Shown: positions 1 to 10,058 of the stretch, piece after piece
How positions within the stretch are numbered: the first letter of the stretch is position 1
Layout: every line of letters starts with the position of its first letter
Made by a program: the position numbers and the translations under genes
Source: Desulfoluna sp.
GTDB lineage: Bacteria > Desulfobacterota > Desulfobacteria > Desulfobacterales > Desulfolunaceae
DNA: 57,510 nucleotides
Reading direction: 5' to 3'
NCBI RefSeq assembly: GCF_030145185.1
Contig: NZ_JAQYWB010000040.1
Location: 1 to 57,510, forward strand
The notes under the pieces: model-generated
What the model saw: only the letters and a program-made list of their open reading frames with translations
The model's database searches: none
Told to the model about the DNA's origin: nothing

Positions 1-2
1 CA

Positions 3-794
3 GACAGCGTTCTCCATATTGAAGGGATCTCTTTCAAACGAGGTAACCGAGAGGGGCTCAAGGGCATTGACGCCCATATTGAGAATGGCCTTTTTCATGC
101 CATCCTGGGACCCAACGGGGTCGGGAAGAGCACCTTGATTGAAATTCTTGCCGGGCAATTGGAACCGGACTCCGGGACGACCTCTCTGTTTGGGACCCCG
201 ATGAAAAAATTCTCGGCCCGCACCGTGGCCCAGAACGTGGCGGTGGTGGCCCAGAGCCATGATGTGCGTTTTGCCTTTTCCGTGCGGGACGTGGTGATGA
301 TGGGGCGGCATCCCCACATTGACCGGTTTGGATCCCCGTCGACGGAGGATTTCAGACTGGCGGAGGAGGCCATGGCCGTAGCCGAAATCCACCACCTGGC
401 CGATAGGCCCATCACCGAGGTGAGCGGGGGCGAGCGCCAGAGAACCCTTTTTGCCCGGGCCCTGGCCCAGGACACCCCCGTTTTAATCCTGGATGAGGCC
501 ACCAGCAACCTCGATATGAAACATACCTTAAGCCTTTTGTCCGTGGTTCGGGAGAAGGTGAAACGGGAAAACAGATGCGCTGTCGGGGTGTTTCAGGACA
601 TTAACACCGCCGCGCTTTTTTGTGACCGTTTTCTGTTTTTAAAAGAGGGCAAAGTGGCGGTGTCGGGCTCTGTGGAAGAGACGATAACACCTGAGATCCT
701 CTGGGAGGTGTTTGGGGTCAAGGCGCGCGTCATGGAAGATGCAGTCACTCACAGCCGTCAGGTACTCTTCAGTTCCGGAGGGTTTTATGGGTAG
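3..794 (+). CDS. ABC transporter ATP-binding protein, FecE/BtuD type (5'-truncated by window edge)
   Basis: This is the ATPase of an iron-chelate/vitamin B12-type importer and would energise uptake with the binding protein that follows. The frame is open from the first bases of the window, so the N-terminus lies upstream. Walker A GPNGVGKST is encoded at 108-134, before the first in-frame ATG (135), so that ATG cannot be the start. Further on come a Q-loop (VAQSHD), the signature VSGGERQR and Walker B VLILDEAT. Its stop overlaps the start of the binding-protein gene by 8 bases, indicating translational coupling. The permease is presumably just outside the window. Position next to cobB suggests a corrinoid or cobalt-chelate substrate, but the FecE family also moves siderophores and haem, so substrate is inference. 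Confidence 0.9.
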   Translation, partial: DSVLHIEGISFKRGNREGLKGIDAHIENGLFHAILGPNGVGKSTLIEILAGQLEPDSGTTSLFGTPMKKFSARTVAQNVAVVAQSHDVRFAFSVRDVVMMGRHPHIDRFGSPSTEDFRLAEEAMAVAEIHHLADRPITEVSGGERQRTLFARALAQDTPVLILDEATSNLDMKHTLSLLSVVREKVKRENRCAVGVFQDINTAALFCDRFLFLKEGKVAVSGSVEETITPEILWEVFGVKARVMEDAVTHSRQVLFSSGGFYG

Positions 795-1722
795 ACGAAT
801 CGGTCTCCTTATTTTTATCGTTTTCAGCCTAGTGTGTCTCTGGCCCCCCATCTCAGGAGCCGCTCAGATTACCGATGCCTCCGGGCGGGTCGTGACCTTT
901 GATAAACCCTTTTCCCGGATTGTCTCCCTTTACAGCGCCCATACCGACAATTTGCTCGCGATGGGGGCCGGTGAGGCTTTGATCGGTGCTTCCAAAGGGC
1001 ATGAGGTCGGGGATATTCCCCGTTTCTCCTATCATGACGGCACGGAACGCTTTCTGGCCGCTCGACCCGACCTGGTGCTTATTCGTCCCATGATTGAACG
1101 GGGATACGGCAGGCTGGTTTCAAGCCTTCGAGCCCGGGGCATCACCGTGATCTCCCTTCAGCCCGGAACGGTGGCTGAGATGATGGATTACTGGGTGGCC
1201 TTAGGAAAACTCAGCGGGCATGAGGCCGAGGCCCGATCCATGGTGTCGACATTTGAAAAAGAGACGCAGCGCATCCAGGGACTCACCCAGGGGATGCATG
1301 AGAAACGGACAGTTTTTTTTGAGGCCATGCACGCCAAGCTGCGTACGTTCTCCAAAGAATCCATGGCAGCCTGGGCCTTAGGGCTCGCAGGGGGCGTCAA
1401 TGCGGCAGAGGACGCGGTCCCGTCCAAGGGCAGCAACATTGCCATTTATGGCAAGGAACGCCTGCTCGCAAAGGGTGCGAGCATCGACGTTTATCTGGTG
1501 CAGCAGGGACGGATGAACCGCGTCACCCGAGAACAAATTGAAAAAGAACCGGGTTTTTCCCTGATCCGTGCCGTGCGCGATGGCAAGATTTACTTTGTGG
1601 ATGAAGCCCTGGTTTCTCGACCCACGCCCGCTCTTCTTGAGGGCGTCAGGCGCATCGGACAGCTTCTTTACCCCACTCTCTTTGAAACGACCACAGAAGG
1701 ACTGGCAGTGCATGGGCAGTAA
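787..1722 (+). CDS. Periplasmic substrate-binding protein of the ABC importer (BtuF/FepB-like, PF01497 type)
   Basis: About 311 residues. The start ATG at 787 is chosen because it is followed at once by a signal peptide (MGRRIGLLIFIVFSLV, then a small-residue cleavage region around SGAAQ). An upstream in-frame start at 712 would bury that signal behind 25 extra residues. The mature protein opens with DASGRVVTFDKP and VSLYSAHTDNLLAMGAG, typical of class III binding proteins for corrinoids and siderophores, and ends near GVRRIGQLLYPTLF. It overlaps the ATPase gene by 8 bases. Its last about 70 bases lie in the first copy of a 100-bp-offset tandem duplication that repeats the junction with cobB. 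Corrinoid as ligand is inferred from neighbours. Confidence 0.88.
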   Translation: MGRRIGLLIFIVFSLVCLWPPISGAAQITDASGRVVTFDKPFSRIVSLYSAHTDNLLAMGAGEALIGASKGHEVGDIPRFSYHDGTERFLAARPDLVLIRPMIERGYGRLVSSLRARGITVISLQPGTVAEMMDYWVALGKLSGHEAEARSMVSTFEKETQRIQGLTQGMHEKRTVFFEAMHAKLRTFSKESMAAWALGLAGGVNAAEDAVPSKGSNIAIYGKERLLAKGASIDVYLVQQGRMNRVTREQIEKEPGFSLIRAVRDGKIYFVDEALVSRPTPALLEGVRRIGQLLYPTLFETTTEGLAVHGQ

Positions 1723-1833
1723 GGCGACTCACCGCCTTGATCGTGAGCGGCGCATCGGACAGCTTCTTTATCCCACTCTCTTTGAAACGACCACAGAAGG
1801 ACTGGCAGGGCATGAGCAGTAAGGCGACTCACC
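1649..1833 (+). repeat. Tandem duplication of the binding-protein/cobB gene junction
   Basis: An 85-base segment at 1649-1733 recurs at 1749-1833 (offset exactly 100) with three differences that I can count (at 1671, 1709 and 1715 of copy 1). Each copy holds the end of the binding-protein gene, its TAA, and an ATG overlapping that stop. In the present arrangement the binding protein stops in copy 1 (1720-1722) and cobB starts in copy 2 (ATG 1812). A 36-codon frame from the copy 1 ATG (1712) runs through to the TAA at 1820-1822. Confidence 0.95.
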
Positions 1834-3215
1834 ACAAGATGGGCTTTCTCATCGGCGGCACCTCAAGCGGCAGCGGCAAGACCACCCTCTCCTTAGGGTT
1901 GATGGCGGCATTGAAACGGCGTGGGCATTCGGTGGCACCCTTTAAGGTCGGTCCGGATTACATCGACCCCGGCCATCATCGTCGTGTGACGGGGAGAGCC
2001 TCACGGAACCTGGACGGTTGGATGCTCAGCCGTGACTATTGCCGGCAGGCTTTTTTCCGCACCATGGCAGAGACAGATCTGGCCGTGGTGGAAGGGGTGA
2101 TGGGGCTCTTCGACGGGTTCTCCGGCACTGATGAGGCGGGCTCTTCGGCCCAGATGGCCAAGTGGCTCGGGCTTCCCGTGATTCTGGTGGTGAACGCCGC
2201 CAGCATGGCCCGAAGCGCAGCGGCTTTGGTGACGGGTTTTCAACATTTTGATCCTGAACTCAATTTTCTCGGTGTGGTCTTCAATAATATCGGCAGCCAG
2301 AGCCATCTCAATTATCTCACCGAGGCACTGTCTGCTCACAGCGATTTGCCCTGTCTGGGCGGGATTCCCAGGGACGAAGCCCTGCGGATTCCCGAGCGGC
2401 ACTTAGGGCTCGTCACCGATGAGGAATATCTCCTGTCCAGAGGAGAGACCGATCACCTCGCCGACACCGTGGAGGCCCATATCAATCTGGATCTGCTGCT
2501 TGAACGGGCCGGGTCCCTTTGTCTTCCGATCGAGGGGCGTGAAGAGCCGACACAATCCGGATGTGCAGAGCTGAAGATCGGTGTGGCCATGGACAGTGCC
2601 TTTTGTTTTTATTACCCGGATAACCTTGAAGCCCTGCAAAAGGCAGGTGCGACCCTGGCATTTTTTTCCCCGGTAGAGGATCAGGCCCTCCCCGAAGGGA
2701 TCAGCGGTCTTTATTTCGGGGGGGGCTATCCCGAACTCTTTGCAGAAAAACTAAGCGTCAACACCCCCATGCGGGAGGCTGTCAAAGTGGCGTCCGAATC
2801 GGGGATGCCGATCTATGGCGAGTGCGGTGGCCTGATGTATCTCTCCGAGGCCATCACGGATTTCGACGGAAAACGCTGGGCCATGTCCGGCTGCCTCTCC
2901 CTTGAAACCGAGATGCAGGAAAAACGCTGTGCCCTGGGGTATCGGGAGATCACCCTGAAGGAGGCGTCTCTGCTGGGGCCTTCAGGCACCACCGTGCGGG
3001 GACATGAATTTCATTACTCCAAACCCGTGAATCATCCGGCCCTTGATAAAATCTATCGGGTGACCCCGCGTACCGATCGCACCCTCCCCGACGAGGGCTA
3101 TGTTAATGGCAACACACTGGGCAGCTACGTTCATCTTCACTTCGGAAGCTCTGCCGGAGTGGGGGAGGCGTTTGTGGCCCGATGCAACGCATATAAGGAG
3201 TCAACGAAACGATGA
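1812..3215 (+). CDS. cobB: Cobyrinate a,c-diamide synthase
   Basis: Amidates side chains a and c of the corrin ring using glutamine and ATP (CbiA/CobB family). About 467 residues from ATG 1812; a second Met at 1839 is also possible. The N-terminal ATPase domain has the P-loop GGTSSGSGKTT and the family motif KVGPDYIDPGHH. The C-terminal class I glutamine amidotransferase domain carries the nucleophile Cys338 in GECGG and a late catalytic His in GHEFHYS. The ATG comes from the second copy of the duplicated junction; the ancestral arrangement would have been an 11-base overlap with the binding-protein stop. The 3' end overlaps cbiC by 4 bases (ATGA). Confidence 0.95.
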   Translation: MSSKATHHKMGFLIGGTSSGSGKTTLSLGLMAALKRRGHSVAPFKVGPDYIDPGHHRRVTGRASRNLDGWMLSRDYCRQAFFRTMAETDLAVVEGVMGLFDGFSGTDEAGSSAQMAKWLGLPVILVVNAASMARSAAALVTGFQHFDPELNFLGVVFNNIGSQSHLNYLTEALSAHSDLPCLGGIPRDEALRIPERHLGLVTDEEYLLSRGETDHLADTVEAHINLDLLLERAGSLCLPIEGREEPTQSGCAELKIGVAMDSAFCFYYPDNLEALQKAGATLAFFSPVEDQALPEGISGLYFGGGYPELFAEKLSVNTPMREAVKVASESGMPIYGECGGLMYLSEAITDFDGKRWAMSGCLSLETEMQEKRCALGYREITLKEASLLGPSGTTVRGHEFHYSKPVNHPALDKIYRVTPRTDRTLPDEGYVNGNTLGSYVHLHFGSSAGVGEAFVARCNAYKESTKR

Positions 3216-3829
3216 AACCCCAGGATATTGAAGACCTGAGCTTTAAAATAATTGGAGAAGAGGCCGGTGACCACGGGTTCTCTGATGCCGAGTGGCCCAT
3301 TGCACGTCGGGTGATCCATACCAGCGCCGATTTTGACTATGTGAACAGCCTTCGGTTTCATCCCGAAGCCATCGAAAACGGGGTCGCGGCCATTCGTGCC
3401 GGTAAACCCATTTTCACGGACACCAACATGGCCCTTTCCGGGATCCGCAAGATGGAGGTGAAATCCTTCGGGGGAAGCGTCACCTGCCTGGTGGCCGATC
3501 CCGAGGTGGCTGCCATCGCCAAAGCCAAGGGGATTACCCGGTCTAAAGCGGCAGTGGACGCCTTGGTCGGCCAACTCGACGGGGCCATCTACGCCGTGGG
3601 GAATGCCCCCACTGCCTTGCTTCGCATTCTGGAACTGGTGCGTGAAGGGCGCGTTAAACCTGCCCTTATCGTGGGCTTCCCCGTAGGATTTGTGAACGCT
3701 GCCGAGTCCAAGGCCGAGCTTTTAGAGACGCCGGGCGTTCCTTACATCACCAACGTGGGACGCAAAGGGGGTTCCAATGTGGCTGCTGCCGCTGTTAACG
3801 CCCTTTTAATCATGGCGTCATCCAGATAG
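3212..3829 (+). CDS. cbiC: Cobalt-precorrin-8X methylmutase
   Basis: Moves the methyl group from C-11 to C-12 to give cobyrinic acid (CbiC/CobH). 205 residues, normal for the family. The conserved catalytic His is His36 in RRVIHTSADFDY. Other family blocks are FTDTNMALSGI and the closing VGFPVGFVNAAESK. An AAGGAG ribosome-binding site lies about 10 bases upstream, inside the end of cobB, and the ATGA overlap points to coupled translation. It ends the first corrin operon segment; 350 bp without a gene follow. Confidence 0.96.
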   Translation: MKPQDIEDLSFKIIGEEAGDHGFSDAEWPIARRVIHTSADFDYVNSLRFHPEAIENGVAAIRAGKPIFTDTNMALSGIRKMEVKSFGGSVTCLVADPEVAAIAKAKGITRSKAAVDALVGQLDGAIYAVGNAPTALLRILELVREGRVKPALIVGFPVGFVNAAESKAELLETPGVPYITNVGRKGGSNVAAAAVNALLIMASSR

Positions 3830-4182: not shown

Positions 4183-4911
4183 ATGTCTGAGAACAGAGGT
4201 ACGCTTTATGGTATTGGCGTAGGTCCGGGAGATCCCGACCTCATCACAATGAAAGCCGTCAAGGCCATGATGGACGTGGATGTTATCTTTACGGCATCTT
4301 CATCCAAAAACAGCTTCAGCCTGGCCGTGGACATTGCCAGGCCCCACCTCCCGGAAAACGTGGCGGTGGAGATCCTCCCCTTCCCCATGACCAGTGAACA
4401 GGGCGTGACCACCAAAGCGTGGAAAGAGAACGCCGACCGTATCGCAGAGGTCTTGAGCTCCGGTAAAAACGCTGCCTTTCTTACCCTCGGAGACCCCCTG
4501 ACATATTCCACCTTCGGGTATATCCTCCAGTACATGAAGGCGGATCACGCCGATTGCCCCGTGGTGACCATTCCCGGTATCACCTCTTTTCAGGCAGCCG
4601 CTGCCCGCATCAACACCCCCCTCGTGGAAGCCGAAGAGTCTCTTGTCATCACCTCCGGTGCGTACGGTGGCGAGCATGTCCGCCGTGTGGCCGCGACCTC
4701 TGAGAACGTGGTCCTCCTGAAAGCCTATAAAAATGTCGATGATATCGCCAATGCCCTCTCCGACAGCGGGCTCCTTGAAAACAGCTGCGCCATCAAGAAA
4801 TGCGGCCGTGAAGGCGAAGAGATCATCTGGAACGTCGGTGATCTGAGAGAGGTGAAGCCCGATTACTGGACGCTCATCATTGCCAAGCAGAAGAACGGAC
4901 TGGCAAACTGA
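4183..4911 (+). CDS. cbiL: Cobalt-precorrin-2 C(20)-methyltransferase
   Basis: SAM-dependent tetrapyrrole methylase adding the C-20 methyl group, the first committed methylation of the corrin branch. 242 residues. Family motifs are YGIGVGPGDPDLITMKA at the N-terminus, LGDPLTYST in the middle and the SAM-pocket block VTIPGITSFQAAAARI. The ATG at 4183 follows AAGGAAG. A single base separates its stop from the ATG of the downstream membrane protein, so the two are almost certainly co-transcribed. Confidence 0.94.
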   Translation: MSENRGTLYGIGVGPGDPDLITMKAVKAMMDVDVIFTASSSKNSFSLAVDIARPHLPENVAVEILPFPMTSEQGVTTKAWKENADRIAEVLSSGKNAAFLTLGDPLTYSTFGYILQYMKADHADCPVVTIPGITSFQAAAARINTPLVEAEESLVITSGAYGGEHVRRVAATSENVVLLKAYKNVDDIANALSDSGLLENSCAIKKCGREGEEIIWNVGDLREVKPDYWTLIIAKQKNGLAN

Positions 4912-4912
4912 G

Positions 4913-5968
4913 ATGGCCGGAAATCGCAAGGGAAAAGGCAGCTATAAGAAGCTGGTGATCTCCCTGGGCGTTACGGCAGCCATGATCGCAGCAGGCCTGA
5001 TCTGGATTGACGGGGTCACCCCCCATGGGGTGGTGACCCGCGTCGGCAAACCTCTGCTGCGGCTCATTTGCTTTATCTCCCTGGGTCTGGTCGCCGGTCA
5101 GGTGATTGAATCCACCGGCTGGACCCGGTATCTGGCGAAAGTGGCCGGACCGCTCTTCCGATTCGCAGGCCTGGGTGATCGCTGCAGTGCAGCGTTTACA
5201 ACAGCCTTTGTCTCGGGAGTGGCCTCCAATTCGATGCTCTACGGTTTTTATAAAGATGGCAGCATCAGCCGCAGGCAGCTCTTCATGGCCAACTTTCTGA
5301 ACCAGTTCCCGGCCTATTTTCTTCACCTGCCCACCACTTTTTTTATCGTCATCCCTCTGGTTGGCAAGGCAGGGCTGGTTTACTTCGGCCTTACTTTTAC
5401 GGCCCTGATCCTTCGGTGCCTTTTTCTTCTGGCCCTGGGCCATGTAACATTGGGTGGTGAAAAGGAAGGGGGCGCAGAGGTGGAGGGTCGAGAACCCACG
5501 GCCAAAGGGTGGACGGCGGTGAAGGACGGCATTCGAAATCGCTTTCCCAAACGCGCGGCCACCATCATCACCTGGGTGATTCCCATCTACGTGGCGGTCT
5601 TTTTTGTCCATCGCCTGGGGTTCTTCGATTTTATGAATGAGGCCCTGGCGCACCTGGCCGTCTCGAAGATCATGCCCGTGGAGTCCCTCTCCGTGGTGGT
5701 GCTGGGTTTTACCGCTGAGTTCACGTCCGGCTTTGCTGCGGCAGGCGCTTTGCTCGAGGCAGGGGTTCTCACCGTTAAACAGACGGCCCTGGCCCTTCTC
5801 ATCGGCAATATCATCGCCTTTCCGATTCGGGCTGTCAGGCACCAGCTGCCCCGCTACGCAGGCATCTTCTCCCCTGTCATGGGAACCCAGATCCTGCTCA
5901 TCGGTCAGTTTTTGAGGATCTTCTCTCTGATGGTCGCAGGCGTGCTCTACTATTGCTTCGTTCCGTAA
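4913..5968 (+). CDS. Nucleoside-recognition ('Gate', PF07670-like) integral membrane protein in the corrin operon
   Basis: About 351 residues, with roughly eight hydrophobic stretches. ATG 4913, two bases after the cbiL stop, is preferred over a TTG at 4880 inside cbiL. The hydrophobic pattern and blocks such as FTTAFVSGVASNSMLYGF, NFLNQFPAYFLHLP and LGFTAEFTSGFAAAGALLEA resemble the Gate/nucleoside-recognition family, which includes SpmA/SpmB-like proteins and the gate region of nucleoside and FeoB transporters. No corrin enzyme matches it. Tight coupling to cbiL suggests a transport role linked to cobamide synthesis (cobalt, a lower-ligand nucleoside or a corrinoid), but substrate is unknown and this is inference. 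Confidence 0.75.
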   Translation: MAGNRKGKGSYKKLVISLGVTAAMIAAGLIWIDGVTPHGVVTRVGKPLLRLICFISLGLVAGQVIESTGWTRYLAKVAGPLFRFAGLGDRCSAAFTTAFVSGVASNSMLYGFYKDGSISRRQLFMANFLNQFPAYFLHLPTTFFIVIPLVGKAGLVYFGLTFTALILRCLFLLALGHVTLGGEKEGGAEVEGREPTAKGWTAVKDGIRNRFPKRAATIITWVIPIYVAVFFVHRLGFFDFMNEALAHLAVSKIMPVESLSVVVLGFTAEFTSGFAAAGALLEAGVLTVKQTALALLIGNIIAFPIRAVRHQLPRYAGIFSPVMGTQILLIGQFLRIFSLMVAGVLYYCFVP

Positions 5969-6369
5969 ACGTGGCAAAAGCATGCCTCCGACGGCCAGGG
6001 GATAATCCCCTGGACCCCAGGTTGCGAATGCTCCGGGCCTTCGTTCCTCAGGTCCGTCACATTCGCTGACGAGCTACGCCCGTGGCCAATGATGTGGGGA
6101 GTGCAGGCGCAGGCATAAGGTTTGGGCGTTGGGTGGTTGCCATGTTGCAACTGAAAATGTGAATTTAAGCTTGAGTCTCGGTTACAGGGCGCCACAGGTG
6201 TCCACAGTATGCACTTGCTACGCACGTTGCATACCGCCTCACGCAATGCGAATGCGGATGTATTTCAGCTCTGAATGACGTCGCCCGACTCGCATTCGCA
6301 AACCAGCTGTCAAGGTGGCACACCTTGCCGCCGGAGGCTTGTTTTTTAAGCCTATAAAGGTTTTTTAAT
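5969..6369. repeat. Repeat-filled gap before cbiD
   Basis: No gene. 5983-6068 is one copy of a dispersed repeat (gcctccgacggccagggg... ending in cacattcgct) that recurs at 9471-9555. 6290-6338 is an inverted copy of another family (core hairpin aaggtggcacacctt, ending gccgccggaggc) seen in the other orientation at 17136-17184, 44064-44112 and 44251-44300. AAAGG at about 6356-6360 is the likely cbiD ribosome-binding site. Confidence 0.8.
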
Positions 6370-7461
6370 ATGGCAAAAAAACGAACATTACGAAGTGGGT
6401 TTACCACTGGCACGGCGGCTACAGCGGCGGTGACGGGGGCGGTGAATCTTCTTCTCACCGGGGTTTGCCCGGAGTGTGTCCGGGTGCCTTTTTTAAGTGA
6501 AGGGCATGTGGACATTCCCCTTGTCTCCTGTGGGATGGAAGGGGAGGTGGCGGTGTGTACCGTTATGAAAGACGGTGGGGATGATCCGGATATTACCCGG
6601 CACGCCATTATCGGCGCGCGGGTGAGGCGGGGAGATTCTGCCGGAGCGGCGCTTGTGCTGACAGGTGGCGAAGGGGTGGGGCGTGTGACTCGGCCCGGCC
6701 TGGAAGTCCCGGTGGGGAAAGCGGCCATCAACTCCGGGCCGGTGAAGATGATTCATCGGGCAGTGGAGGTCCTTCGTCTTGAGACGGGGGATGAATCTCC
6801 GCTGGAGATCGAAATTTTTGTTCCTGAAGGCGAGGTGATGGCAGAAAAGACCCTGAATAAGCGCCTGGGCATCGAGGGGGGAATCTCTATCCTCGGGACC
6901 ACAGGGGTCGAGCGGCCCCTCTCCCATGAAGCCTATGAAGCCACGGTCCGTTCTTCCATTAAGGTCGCCAAGGCTATCGGGGGCCACAGCGTGGTCTGCA
7001 CCACCGGGCGTCGCAGTGAGCGGTTTGCCATGGAGGTGTTTCCGGAACTTTCGGAGCCCTGTTTTGTCCAGATTGGCGATTTTTTTAAAAGCTCCATGGA
7101 GACGGCGGGTGCTGAATCCATGGATGTTGTCCTGGCGATCTTCTTCGGTAAAGCCGTTAAGATGGCGGCGGGCATTCCTCATACCCATGCGGCCAAGTCG
7201 GACCTTAACTTGAGGTTCCTGGCCGACCTGGTGGAAGAGATGGTGGACGATGTGGAGCTGGTTAACAACGTGGCCCACTCCAACACCGCCCGTGAGGCCT
7301 TTACCTGGCTTGAAGGCCCCTGCCCGGAGGTGATCGCCCGTGTGGGCGAGCTGGCTGCTGCCTCGGCGTCTCGGTTTGCAGGGGGCGGTATTAACACCCG
7401 GTGCCTTATTTTTGATTTTGATGGAAACGTGGCAAGCGACAGCATGAAGGAGCCGTCATGA
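6370..7461 (+). CDS. cbiD: Cobalt-precorrin-5B C(1)-methyltransferase
   Basis: Methylates C-1 after ring contraction; specific to the anaerobic corrin pathway. 363 residues, full length. The N-terminal family signature SGFTTGTAATAA is clear, with GGEGVGRVTRPGL and the glycine-rich TTGRRSERFA further on. The ATG at 6370 lies just downstream of a dispersed repeat. The 3' end overlaps cbiET by ATGA. Presence of cbiD together with cbiG marks the oxygen-independent route. Confidence 0.96.
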   Translation: MAKKRTLRSGFTTGTAATAAVTGAVNLLLTGVCPECVRVPFLSEGHVDIPLVSCGMEGEVAVCTVMKDGGDDPDITRHAIIGARVRRGDSAGAALVLTGGEGVGRVTRPGLEVPVGKAAINSGPVKMIHRAVEVLRLETGDESPLEIEIFVPEGEVMAEKTLNKRLGIEGGISILGTTGVERPLSHEAYEATVRSSIKVAKAIGGHSVVCTTGRRSERFAMEVFPELSEPCFVQIGDFFKSSMETAGAESMDVVLAIFFGKAVKMAAGIPHTHAAKSDLNLRFLADLVEEMVDDVELVNNVAHSNTAREAFTWLEGPCPEVIARVGELAAASASRFAGGGINTRCLIFDFDGNVASDSMKEPS

Positions 7462-8678
7462 AACAAACCATCACCGTGATGGGCTTTGGCCTGTCAGAGA
7501 AGGATCTTCCCCAGACATCCCTCGATCTTATCGCAGACGCTGACCTTCTCGTGGGGGGGAAGCGGCATTTATCCGCATGTGGGGCGATCTCTGCTGAAAA
7601 AGTGGTGATTGAAGGAAAAATGTCCGCTATTCTGGATCGCCTGGAAGAGCCGGTGGCAGCGGGCAAAAAAGTGGTCATCCTCGCCTCGGGCGATCCCCTC
7701 TATTACGGCATCGGCTCTCTGGTCACAACACGCTTCGGGACGGACGCCGTGAGGGTGATTCCGAACGTTTCGGCCGTGGCCGGGGCCTTTGCCAGATTGG
7801 GCCTGGCCTGGCAGGATGCCGGGGTGGTGAGCCTTCATGGCCGCGGGATGTCACCAGAGACTCTGGAGATTCTTGTGGGGCATGAAAAAACAGCCCTTTT
7901 CACCGACCCCACCAACAGCCCTGATGCCGTCGCCGCATGGCTTCTGGATCAGGGGGTGAGAGCCGAAGCCTGCCATGTTTTTGAATCCATGGGAACTCCG
8001 AACGAAAAACACACCCACACCCCACTCACCCAGGTTGCGGAAGGCTGTTTTGCCGATCCCAACATGATGGTGATCCTGGGGGCTGCGCTTCAAGTAGAGC
8101 CCCCTTTTATCGGGCTGGGCATGCCCAGTGACGCCTTTTCCCACCAGCGAGGCTTGATTACCAAGCCCGAAGTTCGGGCCGTGACTCTGGCCAAGCTGGG
8201 CCTCAAGCCCGGGCAGGTGCTCTGGGATCTGGGTGCGGGCAGTGGGTCGGTCTCTATTGAAGCCTCCCGTTTTGTGAAGAAGGTGTGCGCGGTGGAGCAA
8301 AAAGCCGAGCGTGTGGCCGATATAAAAACCAATATGCGCCGTTTTGGCGTCATGAACATGACGGTGACGGAAGGCTCACTTCCCGACGCCGCAACCGAAC
8401 TTTCCGATCCGGACGTTGTCTTCATCGGAGGCGGCGGAAAAGGCCTTGATGCCATTATCCGCATGGCCTCTGACCGTATGGGAGAAAACGCACGCATGGT
8501 GGTGAACACCGTGCTCCTCCAGAGCCTCGGCACCGCCGTGACCGCCCTTGAAGATGAAGGGTTTTCCGTGGAGGTGCTGCAACTCAACGCAAGTATCTCC
8601 ACCACCGTGGCCTGGGATATCATGCTTAAAGGAACCAATCCGGTCTTTATCGTCACCGGAATACGAGGAGTAGGTTGA
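7458..8678 (+). CDS. cbiET: Fused precorrin C(5,15)-methyltransferase / C-12 decarboxylase
   Basis: A bifunctional CbiE-CbiT (CobL-type) protein of 406 residues. Residues 1 to about 200 are the CbiE tetrapyrrole methylase (VMGFGLSEKDLP, LVGGKRHL, SGDPLYYGIG). Residues from about 230 form the CbiT class I methyltransferase with the SAM-binding motif LWDLGAGSGSVSIEA and the acidic block FIGGGGKGLDAI. It overlaps cbiD by 4 bases and its TGA shares one base with the cbiF ATG. Confidence 0.95.
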   Translation: MKQTITVMGFGLSEKDLPQTSLDLIADADLLVGGKRHLSACGAISAEKVVIEGKMSAILDRLEEPVAAGKKVVILASGDPLYYGIGSLVTTRFGTDAVRVIPNVSAVAGAFARLGLAWQDAGVVSLHGRGMSPETLEILVGHEKTALFTDPTNSPDAVAAWLLDQGVRAEACHVFESMGTPNEKHTHTPLTQVAEGCFADPNMMVILGAALQVEPPFIGLGMPSDAFSHQRGLITKPEVRAVTLAKLGLKPGQVLWDLGAGSGSVSIEASRFVKKVCAVEQKAERVADIKTNMRRFGVMNMTVTEGSLPDAATELSDPDVVFIGGGGKGLDAIIRMASDRMGENARMVVNTVLLQSLGTAVTALEDEGFSVEVLQLNASISTTVAWDIMLKGTNPVFIVTGIRGVG

Positions 8679-9457: not shown

Positions 9458-10058
9458 GGGAAAAGAGCGTGCCTCCGGCGGCCAGGGGCTGAGCCCCTGG
9501 ACCCCAGGTTGCGAATGCTCCGAGCCCTCGTTCCTCGGGCACGTCACATTCGCTTATTGAGATACATATGAATTGCTTTGGAGTGCCCTTGGAACTTTTC
9601 GACCAGTCATTGTTTCAATGTAACCAAATTTGGTTCAGCAAGAAGTTTGTCGAACTCGGAGGCGGTCAAATTTAATTGCCTGCAGTATTTGTCCAACACT
9701 GTTTGGGTTGCGACATTGTGAATTTCGGCAATTTTTCTCTCGTTCCCAGGCTCCGCCTGGGAATGCACTCCGGAGGCTCTGCCTCCATGCTTGAGATCGT
9801 TTCACCCTGTAAGTTTTATTTGTCACGTCGTAGCTTCTTATACCGGCAAGGCGGAGCCTTGCAAATGACGCTCCCAGGCAGAGCCTGGGAGCGAGACAAG
9901 GGTGATGAGAATCCGGTGAGGGGGAGAGAAGGGCTATGAATACAGACTTGTGAATGCTGATATGGTTTGATCCGAGGAACGGGGGCCAAGCCATATCCAC
10001 AACCGGAAAGTTTTTTGCGGAGCTTTTTTTCAAAAAAGCGACCCGCCGGAGGCATGTT
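9458..10058. repeat. Repeat-rich gap before cbiG, with a palindromic REP-like element
   Basis: 9471-9555 is a copy of the gap repeat also found at 5983-6068. 9738-9898 is a palindromic element whose ends are ctcgttcccaggctccgcc and its imperfect inverted complement (cccaggcagagcctgggag), with inner hairpins ggaggctctgcctcc and caaggcggagccttg; related copies lie at 17438-17597 and 25395-25500. 10001-10054 is a hairpin repeat (agcttttttt then aaaaaagc, ending cgccggaggcat) repeated at 12721-12773. No gene is supported here. Confidence 0.85.

Follow-up and report, generated by a model that had tools for sequence, protein, structure and literature searches.

Concerning the supply of cobalt to corrin synthesis, the closest described system is itself a predicted one. 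In the relevant passages of Rodionov et al. (2004; PMC545781), delta-proteobacteria that possess cbiK are stated to have no homologues of known cobalt transporters, and cbtX (COG3366), which encodes a transmembrane protein and clusters with cbiK, is predicted to specify a cobalt transporter; for Desulfovibrio, the same passages describe cbiK-cbiL and btuCDF as lying under a B12-element. CbtX also appears among the predicted transporters in the corresponding part of Zhang et al. (2009; PMC2667541), and a periplasmic cobaltochelatase is named in Desulfovibrio vulgaris in the relevant section of PMC4063343. According to the portion of PMC8980893 dealing with FeoB, the Gate domain occurs in this Fe2+ importer. 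A bench test of CbtX was not found in the open-licence literature.

In the current study, a Gate-domain membrane protein gene of Desulfoluna sp. was analysed within a window of 57,510 nucleotides (the whole stretch of DNA under analysis), which is the entire contig C98 of the source genome. We consider it probable, at roughly 60%, that this gene encodes a CbtX-type inner-membrane importer supplying cobalt(II) for corrin synthesis. The operon in which it lies comprises the following features:

1..794, + strand: BtuD-like ABC ATPase, 5' end lost at the contig edge (Pfam match from profile position 28 of 137)
712..1722, + strand: BtuF-like periplasmic binding protein (PF01497, 47 bits; below the cut-off of the BtuF model; start uncertain)
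1770..3215, + strand: cbiA, cobyrinic acid a,c-diamide synthase (NF002204, 529 bits; start assumed)
3212..3829, + strand: cbiC (PF02570, 272 bits)
4183..4911, + strand: cbiL, precorrin-2/cobalt-factor II C20-methyltransferase (TP_methylase; TIGR01467, 215.5 bits against a cut-off of 163.25), directly upstream of the Gate gene
4913..5968, + strand: Gate-domain membrane protein (CbtX-like), 351 aa ORF with two repeated halves
6370..7461, + strand: cbiD (PF01888 match at G000:C98:6388-7173), after a gap of ~400 bases behind the Gate gene
7458..8678, + strand: methylase fusion taken as cbiE/cbiT (PF00590 and Cons_hypoth95)

The cbiL stop codon (TGA, 4909-4911) is separated by a single base from the ATG of the Gate gene at 4913. 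The best NCBIfam model for the product of 1..794 is a corrinoid ABC ATPase, with a score under its cut-off. In the part of the window that was scanned, further neighbours backed by Pfam or NCBIfam are CbiG, CobQ, CobU, CobS and CbiB, together with a profile-supported aminotransferase in the same gene neighbourhood that was taken as CobD; inspection by eye gave the names CbiF, CbiH and CobO. A 92-base intergenic repeat occurs at 5976-6067 and 9463-9554 (88% identical), one copy lying between the Gate gene and cbiD. A search for cobalamin riboswitches found none in the window itself. The cbiK gene of this genome is on a different contig from the Gate gene, C33, which ends in BtuC and carries two tandem cobalamin riboswitches ahead of CbiK and BtuC (L133:2587-3272, minus strand). 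Since C33 ends in BtuC and the window opens with a truncated BtuD-like gene, the two contigs are probably joined, as the gene order of other Desulfoluna would suggest. A second CbiK, with no obvious signal peptide, is encoded on contig C71.

The Gate domain (PF07670) was identified at residues 48-125 with 33.3 bits, above the cut-off of 29.6, and it is the only Pfam domain within the 351 aa. The protein shares the Gate domain with FeoB, likewise a metal-ion membrane protein, but differs in its length and in its lack of an N-terminal G-protein domain; a gene of the source genome that matches Gate twice was named FeoB-like by eye, and profile comparison of the Gate family with this FeoB-like protein, another Gate protein and a CNT-like protein (one sequence each) gave no match. 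The Gate domain is likewise what it has in common with SpmA/SpmB-type proteins and PRK10519; the latter model (NF007811) is its best NCBIfam match, yet at 24 bits falls far short of the cut-off of 111, and among NCBIfam matches up to E 0.1 there was no Spm model. Three Desulfoluna species with named loci encode proteins 90-92% identical across the entire length. Searches of solved structures by sequence (E up to 1), of plasmid and phage collections and of viral contigs returned no match or relative. AlphaFold, run on a seven-row alignment (A1), gave a poor model (mean pLDDT 44).

The preliminary description had proposed a membrane protein of roughly eight segments; its membrane nature is upheld, but the hydropathy averaged over 67 relatives displays nine hydrophobic peaks, as does the alignment of 81 Gate proteins. 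Profile comparison of residues 35-195 with residues 196-351 yielded a probability of 92 (E 6e-7, 89 columns; 82 when forced to be global), and the protein is therefore a two-fold repeat. All 67 order-clade rows have H138, R168, E269, R306, R309, H310, Q311, Q332 and R335 in common, while among 14 distant Gate proteins histidine is found at 138 in four, glutamate at 269 in nine and histidine at 310 in none. H138 and H310 were considered as a symmetric pair across the repeats; their equivalence needs an alignment gap and is not claimed.

Of 132 Gate proteins, 105 combine H138, E269 and H310, a count equal to that of the rows in one clade of a quick tree, here called the signature clade (SH-aLRT 98). 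Six further cbi-linked proteins form a divergent branch that groups with it in a clade of 111 (SH-aLRT 98), outside of which the chelatase-linked and other Gate proteins fall; the tree program cautioned about long branches, including one within the divergent six. The signature family is a clade apart from the other Gate proteins collected, in a tree composed without SpmA/SpmB sequences. Gate genes away from cbi genes nest within the signature clade. The divergent cbi-linked branch (L239-L244) keeps H138 and has leucine at 269 and arginine at 310, which weakens E269 and H310 as ligands needed by every cbi-linked member.

Searching the order Desulfobacterales with alignment A1 gave matches at E 1e-10 or better in 80 of 194 genomes, and the 68 with a Gate match of at least 200 bits were defined as carriers. 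CbiD was found in 62 of the 68 carriers compared with 31 of 126 non-carriers; in those 62 it lies within 10 kb of the Gate gene in 43 (42 on the same strand) and on another contig in 19. Sixty-six loci were read in which the Gate ORF is at least 290 aa (shorter ones were dropped), including those of Desulfoluna and excluding the window, with neighbours labelled by BLAST using the window proteins and starts left uncurated. The usual order in many relatives is CbiK, BtuC, BtuD, BtuF, CbiA, CbiC, CbiL, Gate, CbiD, parts of which are absent or on other contigs in some; Desulfoluna spongiiphila (L007) has CbiK and Gate within a single gene run. CbiL is located no more than 300 bases upstream of the Gate gene in 57/66 loci and CbiD no more than 600 bases downstream in 39/66, and such recurrence across genomes confirms that the place of the Gate gene beside CbiL exceeds chance. 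The close tie of a transporter-like Gate protein to corrin synthesis, asserted from the window alone, is accordingly borne out in the order, where homologues were not mostly outside cobalamin loci: 61 of 66 have at least one cbi/cob gene on the same strand within 10 kb.

The five order loci without such a gene are L046 (beside CbiM/CbiQ), L051, L054 (beside BtuF), L061 and L172 (short contig). At L051 of genome G191 (L051:790-3425, minus strand), the gene immediately downstream of a signature Gate gene is HgcA-like, its product having a CdhD domain and five hydrophobic segments. A ferredoxin of 91 aa, in which Fer4 occurs in two stretches, is encoded next, and we take the two genes to be an hgcAB-like pair; neither CbiD nor CbiC was found in this genome (91% complete). 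Genome G029, with its Gate gene in an ECF run and no CbiD, was considered as one lacking B12 synthesis, a reading given up in view of its CbiC match. Small two-segment proteins occupy the CbiN position beside CbiM/CbiQ-like genes at L064:13629-13937, L065:7354-7662 and L066:12103-12375, and they matched no Pfam family.

In the phylum sample, a search with alignment A2 matched 84 of 345 genomes, and CbiD is present in 61 of the 68 carriers (at least 265 bits) compared with 105 of the 277 others; these carriers include one without the residue signature (G105), one whose gene is interrupted by stops (G492) and 19 whose neighbourhood was unread. The G492 copy (G492:C47:5759-6745) matches at 312 bits with six internal stops and is apparently broken, in a genome that keeps CbiD. 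Of the 60 carriers from outside the order, 55 have CbiD and five are without it. Forty loci were read there, and in 16 of them a cbi gene lies no further than 8 kb away. The other 24 are detached from cbi genes at this distance, which would, taken alone, count against a link to B12, but 23 of the 24 genomes carry CbiD (the exception being G300, L229). Detached Gate genes adjoin genes for a ChaN-M1-PDZ protein, ZIP, Usp, PanB, pseudouridine synthase and others. In one branch, signature Gate genes precede a large ChaN-peptidase M1-PDZ protein (confirmed in L203 and L213), whose chain in L203 also contains a cation-efflux domain; the same neighbour in L209, L220 and L214 is recognised by size or contig end only. 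Tree labels are provisional for the ChaN of L209, L212 (which ends at a contig edge), L214 and L220 and for the ZIP of L232.

The Gate protein may replace the cobalt ECF importer CbiMNQO. The latter is an ATP-driven, multi-part complex of unrelated proteins, as opposed to a single Gate protein, for which the same job is proposed. CbiN was found in none of the 194 order genomes and in five of 160 phylum genomes with CbiD (0/61 with and 5/99 without Gate, too few to weigh), and because of this rarity CbiM was chosen for the comparison. The sample was hand-chosen and consisted of 40 Gate-positive (at least 265 bits) and 40 Gate-less genomes, all with CbiD and few contigs; proteins were unread in 13 of the former, and four of the latter (G229, G264, G296, G402) have weaker Gate matches. 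CbiM was regarded as cobalt-type if it lies within 30 kb of CbiD or if a second copy is present, the second-copy sign having been added after the first result. With CbiD positions listed for 32 and 37 genomes, respectively, CbiM is near CbiD in 1/32 Gate-positive and 13/37 Gate-less genomes (Fisher 0.0009), two or more CbiM are present in 1/40 and 12/40, and either sign in 2/40 and 19/40 (2e-5). Allowing one vote per family, which handles shared ancestry only in part, either sign is seen in 2/17 and 11/24 (p 0.04). The comparison covers CbiM signs, NiCoT and similar cobalt importers being outside its scope, and 21 of the 40 Gate-less B12 genomes have no cobalt-type CbiM by the chosen criterion. 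CbiM or CbiQ also lies within 10 kb of the Gate gene in 8/66 order loci, and replacement is therefore not a strict rule; what is observed is a tendency, that is, partial mutual avoidance.

By gene place and published description, the Gate protein looks like CbtX. As described for CbtX, it is a membrane protein clustered with cbiK: 37 of the 68 order carrier genomes have cbiK on the strand of the Gate gene, no more than 10 kb away. A B12 riboswitch over cbiK, btuCDF and cbiL is likewise recovered, RF00174 having been found at least once in each of the eight sources picked for the search, with the two on C33 among them, and presence where CbiMNQO is missing is matched as the above tendency. The preliminary description had offered an undescribed transporter, a label that has to be withdrawn given that cbtX/COG3366, as presented in 2004 in the cited passages of PMC545781, already has the same place and the same logic; the gene belongs to an already predicted family, for which that prediction is strengthened. 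Among the imports guessed at from the window, cobalt fits the logic of CbtX, while a lower-ligand riboside or a corrinoid found no specific support.

The same operon poses the puzzle of why the cobalt-inserting CbiK is usually secreted: 39 CbiK genes lie within 12 kb of Gate in the 66 loci, and by a hydropathy rule 28 encode a signal peptide, eight do not and three are fragments. It is unlikely, in our estimation, that the Gate protein moves a tetrapyrrole for the secreted enzyme (sirohydrochlorin outwards or cobalt-sirohydrochlorin inwards), with BtuCDF returning the cobalt product to CbiL, and quite unlikely that it is specifically the missing carrier by which sirohydrochlorin exits, to be given cobalt by secreted CbiK and returned as cobalt-sirohydrochlorin by BtuCDF. 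Such a role would suit an operon that is often headed by signal-peptide CbiK with BtuCDF next, and in which the Gate gene abuts cbiL; the substrate of CbiL is the product of CbiK. High-scoring CbiK is, moreover, somewhat commoner in Gate-positive (50/62) than in Gate-less (18/31) CbiD genomes of the order, and some distant Gate genes adjoin CobN-like or ChlI/D-like chelatase genes. Those same 18 Gate-less genomes (e.g. L071) nevertheless have the enzyme, the CbiKs fetched from Gate-less genomes having hydrophobic N-termini as judged by eye, and the signal-less CbiK at eight of 39 positions near Gate (a second copy in L043 and L044) also tells against it, as does the avoidance of cobalt-type CbiM, which a tetrapyrrole carrier does not predict. 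A strict dependence of Gate on secreted CbiK is weakened by both the Gate-less CbiK genomes and the signal-less CbiK near Gate. Among the distant homologues, those of L153, L154 and L156 lie beside BtuF, BtuC (and BtuD in L156) and a receptor-sized gene, confirmed as a TonB receptor in L156, followed by a ~190-aa gene and a 353-aa gene, the latter confirmed in L156 as a member of the archaeal-type family DUF2117; those of L155, L157, L158 and L159 lie near Pfam-confirmed CobN-like and/or ChlI/D-like chelatase subunits, and L245 and L246 are possibly chelatase-linked, only a 1136-aa neighbour having been seen.

Another, doubtful, possibility is that B12 operons recruited a transporter of divalent metals in general (Ni2+/Co2+/Fe2+) or an accessory of ECF and BtuCDF systems. 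The DUF4198-CbiM-CbiQ genes beside Gate in L043-L046, the ZIP neighbour in L226 and the cation-efflux domain of the ChaN-M1-PDZ protein in L203 lend this some weight; the occurrence of CbiD in 61 of the 68 phylum carriers, however, ties the Gate gene more closely to B12 than a role in nickel or iron transport would require. Import of a corrinoid intermediate or a lower-ligand riboside is very improbable. BtuCDF is close by, and in G191 the Gate gene abuts the HgcA/HgcB-like pair, HgcA being a protein that needs a corrinoid; BtuCDF of the same operon, however, already fits corrinoid import, the operon builds the corrin ring de novo, and no lower-ligand gene was recognised among those adjoining genes that were identified.

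Cobalt import is favoured by the operon position, the co-occurrence with CbiD, the avoidance of CbiM, metal-gene neighbours such as the ZIP gene of L226 and the DUF4198-CbiM-CbiQ-ABC run of which the Gate gene is the last in L046 (labels by BLAST and eye), the 2004 prediction and the precedent of FeoB. Counting against it are neighbours without a metal link (e.g. PanB, Usp, pseudouridine synthase), CbiM/CbiQ near some order loci, the absence of E269/H310 in L239-L244, the five carriers without CbiD, the FeoB-like comparison without a match and the mostly secreted CbiK near Gate, for which cytoplasmic cobalt would not be needed. As the operon is under a cobalamin riboswitch in relatives, the Gate gene would be co-expressed with it and the protein made when coenzyme B12 is scarce. 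The two repeated Gate halves may form the path through the membrane, with H138, E269, H310 and the conserved arginines and glutamines as a candidate metal site or gate. The substrate, transport direction, energy source and metal ligands, like the junction of C33 with the window, are what we infer from these data.

For the way in which anaerobic sulfate-reducer relatives get cobalt for B12, no bench proof was found in the open-licence literature. With the present analysis, the 2004 prediction gains genome support from the order and phylum samples, in addition to named residues.
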